A stretch of DNA of 36,004 bases. Source: Parcubacteria group bacterium Gr01-1014_33 (lineage in GTDB: Bacteria > Patescibacteriota > Minisyncoccia > Sungbacterales > HO2-52-23). The stretch lies in the NCBI GenBank assembly GCA_007376125.1, contig VMFQ01000004.1:1-36004 (forward strand), read 5' to 3'. The notes under the pieces were generated by a model. It was not told the DNA's origin and searched no databases. It worked only from the letters and a program-made list of their open reading frames with translations. Position 1 is the first letter of the stretch, and the number at the start of each line of letters is the position of its first letter. Below, piece after piece: positions 3,732 through 11,654 of the stretch. Both the position numbers and the translations under genes were made by a program.

Positions 3732-4823
3732 CTATAAGCTATTTTCTTTATCAAAAAGTTTATCCAAGTCAATAAGCCATGATCTACTCGGTAATTCATG
3801 GCCCAGGAGAATCTTTTTTGCAAGATATACACTAAAGCCTGTTGCGGTCATCACGGTGCTTGCAAGTTGGGGTCTCCCAACGAGCGTCTTGCCTATTTCG
3901 GCGACCGATTCCAAAGCACGCGGCGGAATATGAGAAGTACCTGCAAGGTCAACTGCATATTTGTGTTTCTCTGCCGTAGTGATATCAGGATGTGCCAACA
4001 TTTCATAGGGTAAGCGACCAGCTCTCCCGTTAAAGAATTCAAGATTGCGGTTTAAATCATAACGTTCTACGTCTATGAGTACGCGATCACCAAGATTAGT
4101 GATCATAATAACTGGAATACCTGCTTCCCGTGCAAGTGCGCGGAGATGGATTTTCATCTCAAAGCCATCAATGATCTCAAATATGACCTTGGGTTTCGGT
4201 TCATGAGTGAGAAAACTAGTGAGTAGGTCCTTCGAAAGCCCCTCCTCAAAAGTGATTATCTCTGCAAAAGGGTCAATTTCATAAATTTGCCTTGCAGTCA
4301 GGTCAATCTTCTTTATGTAAATCTGGTCAATCCTTGCCCGGATACGGTTTAAATTCGTGGTTTCCAACACATCAAATTCTGCCAATTTGAAAACCTTACC
4401 AATGCCAGAGTAGACGAGCGTGGTTGCGACATTGCTTCCGACGGATAAGCCGATAATTCCAATGCATGATTCCGATAATAGGTGTTGCTCTTCTGCGGTA
4501 ATAAGATTTCGGTTGCGATTTGTGCGAAGTGCGAAATATTCTTCTTGGCGTATGAGGTGAACAAGCAAACCACTCCAAGGAAAATAAGCCCAATCCCCTT
4601 TCAATCTATCCACGCTTAAAACGCTTTTAATATAGCGGTTGAGTTCCGCATCATAGTTGGGCGAGCCAAGAAGATATGCATGGGTTATCTCAAAATATTC
4701 TTTGAGCTGTGCTTCATATATATCACGCTCTTCCCAAATTCGATATCTTTTCTTCAGATTATCAATATCCTTTGCAGAATATGTTCCCTCCCGCAAAATG
4801 ATTGGCTTATAGGCATTATTCAT
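3732..4823 (-). CDS. ThiF/E1-like adenylyltransferase domain protein, Rv1355c (MoeY)-type
   Basis: GIIGLSVGSNVATTLVYSGIGKVFKLAEFDVLETTNLNRIRARIDQIYIKKIDLTARQIYEIDPFAEI; later DRVLIDVERYDL and RPQLAS. Confidence 0.8.
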   Translation of the reverse strand: MNNAYKPIILREGTYSAKDIDNLKKRYRIWEERDIYEAQLKEYFEITHAYLLGSPNYDAELNRYIKSVLSVDRLKGDWAYFPWSGLLVHLIRQEEYFALRTNRNRNLITAEEQHLLSESCIGIIGLSVGSNVATTLVYSGIGKVFKLAEFDVLETTNLNRIRARIDQIYIKKIDLTARQIYEIDPFAEIITFEEGLSKDLLTSFLTHEPKPKVIFEIIDGFEMKIHLRALAREAGIPVIMITNLGDRVLIDVERYDLNRNLEFFNGRAGRLPYEMLAHPDITTAEKHKYAVDLAGTSHIPPRALESVAEIGKTLVGRPQLASTVMTATGFSVYLAKKILLGHELPSRSWLIDLDKLFDKENSL

Positions 4824-4832
4824 TGGAGTATA

Positions 4833-6365
4833 TCAGTTAGTTTTCTCTTTCTTTACCCATTTCTGTTTCCCACCGGGCTTGAAATGCTTCGGGTCCTGAT
4901 AGGACCAAAAAATAATTATAGGCGTCATTTTCCGACGAATACTTTCGTTTGCCCAGAAATCTCGCCATTCGGAATTTTCTTTATTCAGCCACGCAATAAT
5001 TGAATTGTGTGTCTTTTCTCGCAATAATTCACTCTCTACCGCCTTCGGGCGCAACTCCACATTGATTTCAAAATACTGATTTTGCTCTTCGTTATATCCC
5101 ACATATATGCTGAATTTCCCTGTCAGCGACTTTTGCAGTTCTGGATCTTCAAGTGCCTTCCTGATGCTTTCCGGATACACATTGACACTATAGATATTCA
5201 CCGTAAAATCAGTACGTTCCGCGACATATACAAAAGGCAACTGCCAAATAATATGGTCAATGCCTTCCTTTTTTGCTTCAGTCAAAAGGTCAATTCCATG
5301 TGCCGCATAGATGTCTAAAAATGCCTGCATGGTATACACATTGCCGCGGTCCTTCAGATCATATCGTACCAGCGGCAGTCCGCTCCGGCCGGAGCAAAGT
5401 AGCCGACCATCTACTTGCTCAAAAGAGTAAAACTCGGGGATAAATTGTGTCAGCGTCGGTAACCGGTCAGTTTCTGCAAACACGTCATGATAAAGATTGG
5501 ATTTTTTGACAGCAAGACGTCGCGCCAAAATAGAAAGTGGCGTCTCGTGCGACATGGTGCCCAAATCCGCAGTACCGTAATGGTTAATCGTAGCGGTATA
5601 TATATTTCGCGCTCCTCCATTCTTTATGATGTAATCTCTATACCCTTCAGTAAATCCCTCAGCGGCGAAAAAGTATTTTAGGTCATATTGAGACCAGTTG
5701 ACGCCCGCATCTATCCCGTCATCAATCAGATCCTTTACTAACGGCGCATATCCGCCGAGAATGATCTGATCAAAACGATGCCCGAGTCCTCTGACTGCTT
5801 TCAATGTCTCTATTTTATCAGCACCGGGTGTAATAATAGTCAGTTGGTATTCACCCCGATCAATAAGGTATTTGACCGCTTGATATGAAAACATTCCGCC
5901 AATCCAAACGCCAAGCGCGAAGCAATCAATGAATAAAGTGGACTTTTTGTCTATTTCAAAGTAATCCAGAAAAGCTAACTCTGCGGTTAACCCGAATTGT
6001 CGATCCTGAAAGCTCGTACGCGGAAAGTAGAATGGTTCACCTGTAGAGCCGGATGTTGAGGCGATTGTCCACTGCTTTTGCTTGAACATTCCGTCCCAGC
6101 AAAGAGACTCAAGTGGATATGATAAAAGATAATTCTCTTTATTGGTAATTGGAACGCGTCTGAAATCTTTGATTGTTTGTATAGTTGTGGGATTTGTATT
6201 GTGCTTTTGCAGAAAATCACGATAGGCGGGGACACGACTTGTCATTTCATGAAATAATGCCAAGACATCTTTCTCCCCGCGTTTGACCCAATACTCTTCC
6301 GGCTTTGTTTTTAACTCTTTGAGTAAGGCACGAGTCTTTCCCGAAAATTCATCTACAAGAAGCAT
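4833..6365 (-). CDS. Phenylacetate-CoA ligase (PaaK)-like adenylate-forming enzyme
   Basis: 510 aa; P-loop-like STSGSTGEP; GRSGLPLVRYDLKDRG motif. Confidence 0.8.
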   Translation of the reverse strand: MLLVDEFSGKTRALLKELKTKPEEYWVKRGEKDVLALFHEMTSRVPAYRDFLQKHNTNPTTIQTIKDFRRVPITNKENYLLSYPLESLCWDGMFKQKQWTIASTSGSTGEPFYFPRTSFQDRQFGLTAELAFLDYFEIDKKSTLFIDCFALGVWIGGMFSYQAVKYLIDRGEYQLTIITPGADKIETLKAVRGLGHRFDQIILGGYAPLVKDLIDDGIDAGVNWSQYDLKYFFAAEGFTEGYRDYIIKNGGARNIYTATINHYGTADLGTMSHETPLSILARRLAVKKSNLYHDVFAETDRLPTLTQFIPEFYSFEQVDGRLLCSGRSGLPLVRYDLKDRGNVYTMQAFLDIYAAHGIDLLTEAKKEGIDHIIWQLPFVYVAERTDFTVNIYSVNVYPESIRKALEDPELQKSLTGKFSIYVGYNEEQNQYFEINVELRPKAVESELLREKTHNSIIAWLNKENSEWRDFWANESIRRKMTPIIIFWSYQDPKHFKPGGKQKWVKKEKTN

Positions 6366-6586
6366 AATGTTTGGTTATTATTAAATATGGACTTACCCTC
6401 CTTCCTATTTTATTATTTACCAAGCCGCGGTTCAATATCCTACAGGTCTTGTGTTGTTTCCTTATTGTCAGCAGGCTTCGTTCTCATGGAGAGGAAAAAA
6501 TGTTGTCGTAATAATTATCAATATACTAAATTTCTAAACCGATTTCAGTCTGCCACTATGAATCTCTGTATTCAAGGCTGAAATCT

Positions 6587-7606
6587 TTACTCCACCGGAA
6601 TCGTAATATCCTCCACTCGTAGTCGTGGCGAGTGGAATGGAATGGATTTTGTATAGCCGAGACGGAAAAAAATTTGTGGCCGATGAGAAATACCCATAAT
6701 TTGCTGAAGTTCTACCACTTCAAAGGGAAGTGCATTTATAGAAGTTTGCAATCCGTCTCGCTCAGCTTCCAGTAGGATATGTTCCAATATACGCCCCACC
6801 GACAGCCACTCCTTCTTGCTATCTCCTTGAGATCCAATAAAGCCGAATACCGGTGTATGATCTACAAGAAGCGAAATCTCTTTAGTCCTGATAAACCGTA
6901 TAACATTTATGTATTTAATCAGAAATGGCGCAATGAGAGATAGAAAGTTACCAAATCCCATAGTGAATCCCGGCATGCCAATAGGGGAAGCGGTAAAATT
7001 AGTTTTTTTATAAGCCGCCATTTCTTTCCGGAATTCTTTATTTTCAAATTCTTTTTCCCGAAAACGGATTAAATATTCAGCAATAGCAATCTTTTTTGCG
7101 TGGTCTGATACAAAGTCTACATAGATATCGTGAGAACTATATTTTTTGAAGTGATCTATTATTCCGTTGCGTGGGAGTTCATTATCGTATGGATTCCGAT
7201 TGGAGCGTCGCTCTGGTATAGAAAAAATAAGGTGGTCGTGTAGGGATGATTGACGAGGGAGAGGTACCAAAGAAATTTTTGCCGTTGCGTCTGGAAACTC
7301 GTCGGGAAAGTATTCAATATCTGTAGGGAAACCAAAATAATCAGCCGCAATGGAAAAGTTTTCGATCGCACAACCTAATGCAATATATACATGCCGATTC
7401 AATGGATCGCTAACCGGTAAAAAACGAGCAGGATTACGCAATAAAAATAGAGCATTATTAATAATTTTAAAATCCCATGGTTGACTATTGTGGCTGGATG
7501 GAGCAAGTATTGCAAACTTAATCAAAAATCGCAAACGATCTCTATCGCTTTTCTGTCGATTGAATTCTTGTATATCAATATTCCATGCTTGATAATTGTT
7601 CTTCAT
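6587..7606 (-). CDS. Nitroreductase-like / Acg-type FMN-binding protein
   Basis: LAPSSHNSQPWDFKI; ERRSNRNPYDNELP; ALGCAIENFSIAADYFG. Confidence 0.75.
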   Translation of the reverse strand: MKNNYQAWNIDIQEFNRQKSDRDRLRFLIKFAILAPSSHNSQPWDFKIINNALFLLRNPARFLPVSDPLNRHVYIALGCAIENFSIAADYFGFPTDIEYFPDEFPDATAKISLVPLPRQSSLHDHLIFSIPERRSNRNPYDNELPRNGIIDHFKKYSSHDIYVDFVSDHAKKIAIAEYLIRFREKEFENKEFRKEMAAYKKTNFTASPIGMPGFTMGFGNFLSLIAPFLIKYINVIRFIRTKEISLLVDHTPVFGFIGSQGDSKKEWLSVGRILEHILLEAERDGLQTSINALPFEVVELQQIMGISHRPQIFFRLGYTKSIPFHSPRLRVEDITIPVE

Positions 7607-7642
7607 TTTTCTCTATTAATGCTTACTGCCGGCTTTGAAGTC

Positions 7643-7807
7643 TTAGAGCCTGTTCACGATCTCGCGGTATCCAACCTGAAAATGTAGGTTTTTGAGCGAG
7701 TACAGTCGGAGCACGAAGCGTAATGGTATTACGATGAGTGCGAGACGAAGTTTTGCAACCAAAAACATGCATTTTCAGGTAGGGGGAAGATCGCGAACAG
7801 GCTCTAA
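7643..7807. mobile_element. MITE-like element (165 bp)
   Basis: TIRs TTAGAGCCTGTTCACGATC / GATCGCGAACAGGCTCTAA (18/19) plus internal IR CCTGAAAATG…CATTTTCAGG. Confidence 0.75.
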
Positions 7808-7811
7808 AACC

Positions 7812-8552
7812 TTACTGGTGATTTTTAGTTTTTGAAAGCCATCCGAGGATTATTGGGGGCAGAACAAACACACTAATAAATATAACCCCGATAAAAGTTT
7901 GAGTCATATCGAAGACACGAGTCCGTAGAGGATCGGGCGCAATTCCAACCGGAAGTAAAAAACGTATAAAAATATTCATAATGCCTATAATCGCTAAAGC
8001 GGCTAATATAAAAGAGGCGATACGCACTTCCCGTGACTTCGCCCGCACAAATGAATGCGAGAAGATGGCAAAAAAGGATCCAATACCGATAAAGAGTAAA
8101 TACGAAAGCAGGATGGATAGCCCGCGAGAAAAATTAAGATCAATACCTCCACTCGCATCTATAAATGGGTGAGGATGAGTTCTAATAGTTATAAGTATGA
8201 GGGCTGTTCCCAGCGTAAACGCAAGAATCATTCCTGGCCACGGCGATATTAAAGGGAAAAGTATATAAAAGACCAGGTACATACCAAGCACAGCCGTAAT
8301 CATCAGAAAAAAATTAGCGACAAGCAAGAAGACATAGAGCATTTGCGGATTAGTGGCGAAAAATAAAGTCCCTATAGCCATAGTCCCATTTACTAATACA
8401 AAACCAAAATGTAAAGCAGAAAGCAGAATACCTATTCTGCTCCCCGCTCGCAAGCCGCCGATCTTCCGAAAGGCACTGAAGAAATGAATCCCGCAAAACG
8501 CCAGCCCGATGGAAGAAAGCGAAAAGCCAATCGCAGTGGTAGTTATCGTCAT
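7812..8552 (-). CDS. Multi-pass membrane protein, unknown function
   Basis: 246 aa with about 7 hydrophobic segments; 5-bp gap to the TrmB-like gene. Confidence 0.65.
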   Translation of the reverse strand: MTITTTAIGFSLSSIGLAFCGIHFFSAFRKIGGLRAGSRIGILLSALHFGFVLVNGTMAIGTLFFATNPQMLYVFLLVANFFLMITAVLGMYLVFYILFPLISPWPGMILAFTLGTALILITIRTHPHPFIDASGGIDLNFSRGLSILLSYLLFIGIGSFFAIFSHSFVRAKSREVRIASFILAALAIIGIMNIFIRFLLPVGIAPDPLRTRVFDMTQTFIGVIFISVFVLPPIILGWLSKTKNHQ

Positions 8553-9768: not shown

Positions 9769-9798
9769 TTGACAACGATATTAACCAGGTAGCATAAT
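9769..9798 (+). promoter_or_regulatory. Putative sigma70-type promoter of the graspetide-like locus
   Basis: TTGACA (9769-9774), 18 bp, CATAAT (9793-9798). Confidence 0.6.
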
Positions 9799-9870
9799 AG
9801 ATATAGCCAGCTGGCATGCATGGTGCATGTCGAAATGCTGGCACCGGGTCTTTAACAAGGAGATACGCAC

Positions 9871-10071
9871 ATGGTATCGGGACAACTCATTCCTTTTGTC
9901 GCAGGTTTTATTGAGGAGGGGAGCGTGGAAGAAGGAACAGAAGTACCCCGCTCCTACTCCGAAGATGCCCAAATGGGCATCTGGAACGAGGGAGACCTCC
10001 TTAACCCCGTCTATCTATCCCCCACACAGCTCCATACGCCACGTGGGGATCATATAGGAGATGAGGCTTAA
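9871..10071 (+). CDS. Candidate graspetide (microviridin-like) precursor peptide, 66 aa
   Basis: MVSGQLIPFVAGFIEEGSVEEGTEVPRSYSEDAQMGIWNEGDLLNPVYLSPTQLHTPRGDHIGDEA; SD aaGGAG 8 nt upstream; directly precedes the ATP-grasp gene; PFVAGFIEE resembles the PFFARFLE leader motif; Ser/Thr- and Asp/Glu-rich C-terminal half. Confidence 0.75.
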   Translation: MVSGQLIPFVAGFIEEGSVEEGTEVPRSYSEDAQMGIWNEGDLLNPVYLSPTQLHTPRGDHIGDEA

Positions 10072-10090
10072 CGGGAAGTCCCCTCTTAAC

Positions 10091-10128
10091 ACTATCGACC
10101 AACTGCCACGAAGTGGTTGGTCGATAGT
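10091..10128 (+). promoter_or_regulatory. Strong intercistronic RNA hairpin between precursor and ligase
   Basis: ACTATCGACCAAC…GTTGGTCGATAGT, 13 bp perfect and extendable with G-U pairs to about 16 bp, 6-nt loop, no poly-U tail. Confidence 0.8.
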
Positions 10129-10170
10129 CCTCAACTATTCATACCAGGACCTAAAGAAAAGGAGGTTAAG

Positions 10171-11127
10171 ATGATTCTACTTATTACCAGAAAAGATGAT
10201 ATCCATGCTGATCTTGTCGTAAAAAATCTTGTAGAATTAAAAGCAAAATTTTTTCGCCTTAATACTGATTATTTATCTGACTATGAAATATCTCTTTCTT
10301 TAAATTCTGGATATATTCGCCATCCTGTTACTAAAAGATCAGTAAATTTATCAGAGGTGAAAAGTATTTGGATAAGACGAAGATCTTTGCCTGAAAAAAT
10401 TAAAGATGTTAAAGAGGAGTTTCGTTCGTTCTGCGAAGAAGAATGGTTACGTTTTTATCAAAATATTTGGTCAGTGTTAGAGGATCGATTTTGGATTAGT
10501 CCCCCATATGCGATCGACGCTACGCGGAGTAAGATGAAACAACTAATAATAGCTAGAGATATTGGTTTTCTTGTTCCGGAGACAATCATAACCAACTCTA
10601 TTGATGAAGTTATTGAACTGCAGAGAAAATTTAGTGTATGCATCTACAAACCTCATGATGGGGGAGCGCTCTCTACAGGATCAGATCAAATGATTTATAC
10701 TAATATTATAGATACCATATTAGAGAAATCGGAAGAACTAACAGAGAGCTTGAAGATCTGTCCTGGAATATTCCAGCCATATATTGAGAAAGATTACGAA
10801 CTTCGTATCAATGTAGTTGGTAACAAAGTTTTTGCCGCTAAAATTGATTCGCAGAAAAGCGATAAAACAAGGATAGATTGGAGAAGATATGACTTTAAAA
10901 ATGTCCCACACAGTATTTATCATCTTCCTCCAGAGGAAGAAAACAAATGTATTTCGCTATTAGAAAAATTAGGATTACAATTTGGGGCGATTGATATGAT
11001 AGTTACATCAGCTAAAAAGTATATTTTTCTAGAAATTAATGCTAATGGTCAATGGGCGTGGATCCAGTTACTGACAAAACAATTGATATCTTTTGAAATA
11101 GCGAGACTTCTTGCCATCCATGCGTAG
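10171..11127 (+). CDS. MvdC/MvdD-type ATP-grasp ribosomal-peptide maturase (graspetide ligase)
   Basis: SD AAGGAGG before ATG at 10171; MILLITRKDD, SIWIRRRSLPE, SPPYAIDATRSKMKQLIIARDIGFLVPETIITN, YKPHDGG, FQPYIEKDYELRINVVGNKVFAAKIDSQ, DWRRY, LGLQFGAIDMIVT, FLEINANGQWAWIQ. Confidence 0.9.
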   Translation: MILLITRKDDIHADLVVKNLVELKAKFFRLNTDYLSDYEISLSLNSGYIRHPVTKRSVNLSEVKSIWIRRRSLPEKIKDVKEEFRSFCEEEWLRFYQNIWSVLEDRFWISPPYAIDATRSKMKQLIIARDIGFLVPETIITNSIDEVIELQRKFSVCIYKPHDGGALSTGSDQMIYTNIIDTILEKSEELTESLKICPGIFQPYIEKDYELRINVVGNKVFAAKIDSQKSDKTRIDWRRYDFKNVPHSIYHLPPEEENKCISLLEKLGLQFGAIDMIVTSAKKYIFLEINANGQWAWIQLLTKQLISFEIARLLAIHA

Positions 11128-11136
11128 TAATTATAC

Positions 11137-11171
11137 TGGACTGCAGATATATCTTCTACAGTCCATTTTTT
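11137..11171 (+). terminator. Intrinsic terminator after the ATP-grasp gene
   Basis: TGGACTGcAGA-tatatct-TCTaCAGTCCA hairpin followed by TTTTTT. Confidence 0.8.
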
Positions 11172-11654
11172 ATGAACAAAGAATTAAAAAAAATCTATAG
11201 GGAAGATCAGAAAGATAGAAGGAATCCTCTTTTCAAAACGGATTTTAGTCAATTTCGGAAAAGGGACCTTTTGCGTAAAAAGAAACTTGATACACTTTTC
11301 CGCTCTTGCCGGATAAAGACAGGAGAAGATTATTACCACGCGGCATTACTCTATCATCATAACCTTTCTACTGCGAGTTCAAAAAGGGCGGTTCGCCTTG
11401 CCAGAGTCAGTATTGAGTTGGGGACTAAAAAAGCACTGCGTCTTTACGCAATTACTATAGACAGATTATTAATCAAACAAGGCAAGAAACAAAAATTTGG
11501 TACTCAATATAGACTGATAAAAGGCACGTGGAGACTCTATTCGGTCGATCCTAAAACTACAAATACTGAACGCGCTTTATATAATATACCCCCACTTCCA
11601 CATATCAGAAGTGTGGCTTATGAGGACGACACGAAGAATGAAATTAAACGATAG
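11172..11654 (+). CDS. DUF6624-like protein
   Basis: 160 aa; YREDQKDRR…, KKQKFGTQYR…GTWRLYSVDPKTTNTERALYNIPPL resembles DUF6624 proteins. Confidence 0.6.
   Translation: MNKELKKIYREDQKDRRNPLFKTDFSQFRKRDLLRKKKLDTLFRSCRIKTGEDYYHAALLYHHNLSTASSKRAVRLARVSIELGTKKALRLYAITIDRLLIKQGKKQKFGTQYRLIKGTWRLYSVDPKTTNTERALYNIPPLPHIRSVAYEDDTKNEIKR

Follow-up and report, generated by a model that had tools for sequence, protein, structure and literature searches.

The window (the whole stretch of DNA analysed here, 36,004 nucleotides, which is one whole contig) carries three genes in a row on its plus strand between positions 9769 and 11654, along with the signals listed below. The promoter, the 66-aa open reading frame (ORF) with its Shine-Dalgarno site, and the ATP-grasp gene with an AAGGAGG site of its own were all found where a sequence-only reading of this DNA had put them, and the peptide motifs quoted in that reading appear in the translations of both ORFs. 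Its description of the locus holds for these elements, but omits the DUF6624 gene (11172-11654) and the two hairpins.

9769-9798, plus strand: predicted sigma-70-like promoter TTGACA-18-CATAAT (agrees with the consensus at 11 of 12 bases, with no better site in the region)
9857-9862, plus strand: Shine-Dalgarno site AAGGAG of the precursor, 8 nt before the ATG (from sequence)
9871-10071, plus strand: predicted graspetide precursor, 66 aa (codon-usage frame, leader/tail pattern, a like ORF in the sister locus)
9889-9918, plus strand: leader recognition segment IPFVAGFIEE, residues 7-16 (fit to the Phhx(1,2)h signature, aligned leaders of related loci)
10018-10068, plus strand: predicted core, residues 50-66, with S50, T52 and T56 facing D60, D64 and E65 (residues read from sequence; linkage inferred)
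10091-10128, plus strand: 16-bp hairpin between the precursor and ligase genes (99-nt intergenic stretch, -32.7 kcal/mol, z -4.0)
10159-10165, plus strand: Shine-Dalgarno site AAGGAGG of the ligase (from sequence)
10171-11127, plus strand: predicted graspetide synthetase (MvdC/MvdD-type ATP-grasp ligase), 318 aa (NCBIfam, Pfam, PDB sequence, fold search, tree)
11137-11171, plus strand: terminator-like hairpin and T-run between the ligase and DUF6624 genes (z -3.9; six T)
11172-11654, plus strand: divergent DUF6624 protein, 160 aa (aligned homologues match PF20329; invariant residues)

Elsewhere in the window, genes for a ThiF-family E1-like protein, a PaaK-like AMP ligase and an Acg-family nitroreductase lie in a row on the minus strand (3732-7606), adjoining an alpha/beta hydrolase and a 7TM histidine kinase. 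The nitroreductase is matched by models for ThiF-nitroreductase fusions, and this row is possibly another small biosynthetic operon. An rve integrase core (transposase-type) is encoded close to the contig end (482-1297, plus strand).

The ATP-grasp ligase

The 318-aa protein was compared to models of graspetide maturases and of RimK, the check proposed by the sequence-only reading, and it sided with the former, with scores of 213.8 bits for MvdC (TIGR04185), 204.1 bits for SAV_5884 (TIGR04187) and 191 bits for MvdD (TIGR04184) versus 44.2 bits for rimK_fam (TIGR00768), below that model's cut-off of 143.4 bits. The MvdC and MvdD scores fall far short of the equivalog cut-offs of 425 and 475 bits, and since no curated cut-off is reached, we place the ligase in the family but in none of its named subgroups. 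Its N-terminal MvdD pre-ATP-grasp domain (PF21068) exceeds the gathering score, and the RimK domain (PF08443) gives a weak match. The closest solved relatives by sequence are AMdnB (1e-38), MdnB, MdnC and CdnC. An AlphaFold model (pLDDT 85) has MdnC with bound precursor as its best fold match (TM 0.83), followed by AMdnB, CdnC, PruB, MdnB and PsnB, all ahead of any RimK. Residues D275, E288 and N290, the usual ATP-grasp Mg ligands, are conserved. The host genome has no second copy of the ligase and no other match to a RimK-family model. By its sequence and predicted fold, then, the protein is a graspetide synthetase and not a RimK. The label "microviridin-like" given earlier is apt for the homologous ligase, but not for the missed MvdC/MvdD cut-offs or for a single ligase in place of two.

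The precursor-like ORF

Codon usage favours the frame of the 66-aa ORF (+13.4 bits, versus -2.5 bits or lower for the other five frames). As for the promoter upstream of it, promoter-like sites across the region are not significantly enriched overall. The N-terminal segment IPFVAGFIEE had been likened to the PFFARFLE helix of microviridin leaders, and it does fit the leader signature Phhx(1,2)h described by Makarova et al. (2022, PMC8939145). Beside ligases of this kind, we found leaders of the form [ILVM]P(F/L)..xF(A/L/I)E followed by an acidic, S/T-rich C-terminus, and ORFs were counted as precursor-like if they had a Shine-Dalgarno site, the leader motif and an acidic S/T tail. Such ORFs number 21 in the 41 kb directly upstream of ATP-grasps versus 14 in the remaining 834 kb (strand-bases) of these loci; ten simulated 36-kb sequences yielded one under identical rules. 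A precursor-like ORF lies at most 1.1 kb upstream of the ATP-grasp in 21 of the 43 loci, about 30-fold over the rest of the loci, a factor that is descriptive only because the rules were drawn up after the first examples had been viewed.

The C-terminal half contains S/T nucleophiles and D/E acceptors, as the sequence-only reading had pointed out (in the predicted core, S50, T52, T56, D60, D64 and E65), and the microviridin motif TxKxPSD is indeed missing. The spacing is T52-xxx-T56-xxx-D60-xxx-D64-E65, which misses the exact spacing of the branch-1 signature TxxxTx(6-10)Dx(1-4)D (PMC8939145). The core is a singleton among its relatives: searches of plasmids and of 368 genomes of the class gave no homologue beyond chance. 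A match in genome G312 (E=0.002) was discarded because its overlap spans 23 residues and no listed small ORF corresponds to it, as was one in Marinobacter (E=0.1), which is a stretch within a larger gene. A resemblance to GRASP_targ (YSEDAQMGIW versus YDHDQQIGVL), plausible by eye, was rejected by a shuffle test (z 0.8) and by the model itself (TIGR04186, cut-off 25 bits), which has no match to the precursor at E up to 10. Going by these comparisons, the core sequence is new.

A separate ORF of this general type was seen in an Anaerolineales bacterium (JAGVAO010000002.1, positions 7519-7947 of the locus), where 142 aa are encoded directly 5' of an ATP-grasp gene at 8001. Its leader reads PIPFGLLFEE, a repeat of the (G)TxTxT...ESSDSDD type occurs four times, and the ORF probably encodes a multi-core graspetide precursor in Chloroflexota.

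The sister locus and the DUF6624 gene

The nearest relative of the ligase in the tree (support 100/95) is that of locus L053, from genome G027 of another family of the class. L053 has the same order as the window, namely a leader-bearing ORF, a hairpin, the ligase, a terminator-like hairpin and a DUF6624-like gene. Its folds are stable at both gaps, with a run of nine T after the second hairpin, and stable folds in the gap between precursor and ligase also occur in L052 and L054. The L053 precursor, MEVETKVSPFAVRFGE...GDEAC, sits in the same place as the window ORF, and the two are alignable in the leader alone (z 0.7). Conservation of the 66-aa ORF beside homologous ligases thus extends to its type, position and leader, but not to its core, even in this sister locus. 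The DUF6624-like genes are 36% identical and the ligases 39% identical; with ligase identity this low, the layout has either been kept for long or moved as a unit.

The 160-aa protein encoded after the ligase matches PF20329 directly at 15.7 bits (E=0.011), under the gathering score of 27 bits, and so we call it a divergent relative and not a Pfam-certified member. Searches with phmmer and iterated HMMs lead from it to the ligase neighbours in L053 (7e-21) and L074 (2e-19) and from these to true DUF6624 proteins, and 17 of 18 aligned family members match PF20329 (best 1.9e-22). H63, D97, Q107 and G110 are invariant in the aligned relatives. Counting the window, 19 of the 43 loci have a DUF6624 gene, and in 16 it follows the ligase at a distance of no more than about 90 nt (in L074 on the opposite strand). 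Among 384 sampled genomes, 17 have DUF6624 and 25 a graspetide-type ligase; the two co-occur in 10 genomes where about 1 is expected, with a Fisher p of 3e-9 that is too optimistic, as genomes share ancestry. Judged from this association, DUF6624 is a conserved partner gene of graspetide loci. Sequence search retrieved no solved relative, a model built from the single sequence (pLDDT 71; of five models only one was good) reached no better than E=0.49 against the PDB, and viral contigs contained no relatives. DUF6624 genes are also present in two genomes in which no graspetide-type ligase was detected (G008:C18:6862-7266, from the window genome's own family, and G056:C41:2116-2607).

Known systems, alternative readings and biology

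Graspetide loci with this leader type were described in CPR bacteria in 2022 (PMC8939145), so the window locus is not a new kind, and the earlier claim of novelty does not stand. Loci of ATP-grasp branches 1 and 2 in that work share with the window the kind of host, the Phhx(1,2)h leader, a short Thr/Asp core and a ligase adjoining the precursor, whereas the window core reads TxxxT-x3-D-x3-D-E and theirs TxxxTx(6-10)Dx(1-4)D; the cores of CPR precursors vary between clusters. The same work reports an associated uncharacterised family, "cluster 23", in which a His and an Arg are conserved and which is probably the family of DUF6624 relatives seen here. DUF6624 is frequent in graspetide groups 18, 20, 23 and 42 of Carter et al. 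(2026, PMC13097080), who describe it as uncharacterised and suggest that it may be a class of biosynthetic enzyme yet to be discovered; their groups 27 and 42 include many members from candidate phyla. As in groups 18, 20, 23 and 42, DUF6624 adjoins a graspetide synthetase in the window, but the window protein is too divergent for the Pfam cut-off. Microviridin systems (MdnA with MdnB and MdnC) have a homologous ATP-grasp ligase of the same fold and a helical PFFARFLE-type leader; unlike them, the window has a single ligase, no TxKxPSD core, no clustered C39 transporter and no acetyltransferase. The actinobacterial GRASP_targ/SAV_5884 systems of the fuscimiditide type (TIGR04186/TIGR04187) supply the second-best ligase model and an RPFG-type leader resembling IPFV, but the window precursor misses TIGR04186 and no isoaspartyl methyltransferase was seen adjoining. 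The additions made here are the core sequence, which is new, a layout of three genes and two conserved hairpins, and a divergent subfamily of DUF6624.

We read 9769-11654 as a three-gene graspetide cassette, with a probability of about 0.83 on the computational evidence. Counted against this were the core without homologues, the lack of a GRASP_targ match, the lack of a clustered peptidase or transporter and of any C39 domain, the absence of the system from the rest of the order, and the missing Shine-Dalgarno site before the DUF6624 gene, itself behind a possible terminator, which makes co-transcription of that gene less certain. It is improbable that the ligase, while a true graspetide synthetase, acts on a precursor encoded elsewhere in the genome: the 66-aa core has no homologue, and a precursor-like ORF sits 3' of the ligase in related loci L021/L065 and L025/L069, but the 66-aa ORF has a fitting leader motif and position, a ribosome-binding site and the favoured frame, a similar ORF occupies this place beside the sister ligase, and a scan by the same rules out to 3 kb from the window ligase turned up no further candidate. 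Scarcely credible is a RimK-like glutamate ligase or other peptide ligase acting on a cellular protein beside an incidental small ORF. Against the weak rimK_fam and PF08443 scores stand graspetide maturase models that score about 150-170 bits better, a fold search that puts graspetide synthetases ahead by many orders of magnitude, and the context of a leader-bearing ORF and DUF6624; this identity was rejected on model scores and fold.

The distribution of the system bears on whether the cassette still works. Graspetide-type ligases occur in 25 of 384 sampled class genomes (TIGR04185, E<1e-25) and relatives of the window ATP-grasp protein in 15 of 380 genomes of a phylum sample, and the ligase is absent from all 22 other genomes of the order, leaving one in 23 with the system. 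The GC content of the ligase gene (34%) is under that of all 17 comparison genes of the window (38-52%). The cassette was likely gained horizontally. A recently acquired and now decaying remnant without export would agree with this distribution and composition and with the shortage of processing genes described below; nevertheless, the three ORFs are intact, the catalytic residues are conserved, precursor and ligase each have a ribosome-binding site and the hairpins recur in the sister locus, all of which makes such a remnant very unlikely. A graspetide-type ligase frame in another locus (L023/L067, G032:C46:25571-26500) has one internal TAG stop and is a decayed gene or an assembly error. Graspetide synthetase-type ATP-grasp genes were also seen in phage and prophage contigs, namely Leptospira phage vB_LalZ_80412-LE1 (KF114876.1), with one tiny ORF directly 5' of the gene, and IMG/VR contigs (L092-L097), at 26-33% identity to the window protein. 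A phage origin or phage-borne copies were rejected, as the window protein has no match in viral contigs and the phage relatives reach only about 33%. PADLOC gave no match, leaving a defence-system reading unsupported.

For the graspetide cassette, the analysis shows to which families the genes belong, the leader pattern, and a layout that is conserved in the sister locus; we infer the ring chemistry, the order of events, the role of DUF6624 and the biological role. The promoter at 9769 would drive a short leader-core precursor in excess, and the hairpin after it would probably stabilise or partly terminate the transcript, giving less ligase. The ligase would bind the helical leader segment IPFVAGFIE and, with ATP, phosphorylate the core carboxylates of D60, D64 and E65, which the hydroxyls of S50, T52 and T56 would attack to form one to three macrolactones, with a loss of 18 Da each. 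The DUF6624 protein may act as a partner or as a tailoring or processing protein, presumably at a lower level because of the terminator-like hairpin in front. Neither a peptidase nor a transporter is clustered with the locus, as the sequence-only reading had remarked, and a search of the genome revealed no C39 peptidase domain, so if the leader is removed and the product exported, general or unrecognised proteins would do this. A bolder proposal is that DUF6624, with its His-Asp-Gln-Arg site, is a new type of partner protein or tailoring enzyme for graspetides, and that its divergent subfamily (window, G027 and G511) makes with the ligase an unprecedented ring pattern, which an episymbiont would use on or against its host; we consider this rather doubtful.

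The host genome is small (1.05 Mb at 97% completeness), and ribosomal protein bL30, found in 12 of 14 control genomes, was not found in it. Both features fit the CPR/Patescibacteria host suggested earlier. CPR bacteria possess few biosynthetic genes and are believed to live on other bacteria or in association with them, and a compact peptide-cyclising cassette therefore points to chemistry in that relationship. At 1.9 kb and three genes, the locus is small enough for co-expression testing, and it offers a minimal setting for asking what DUF6624 does in graspetide loci.
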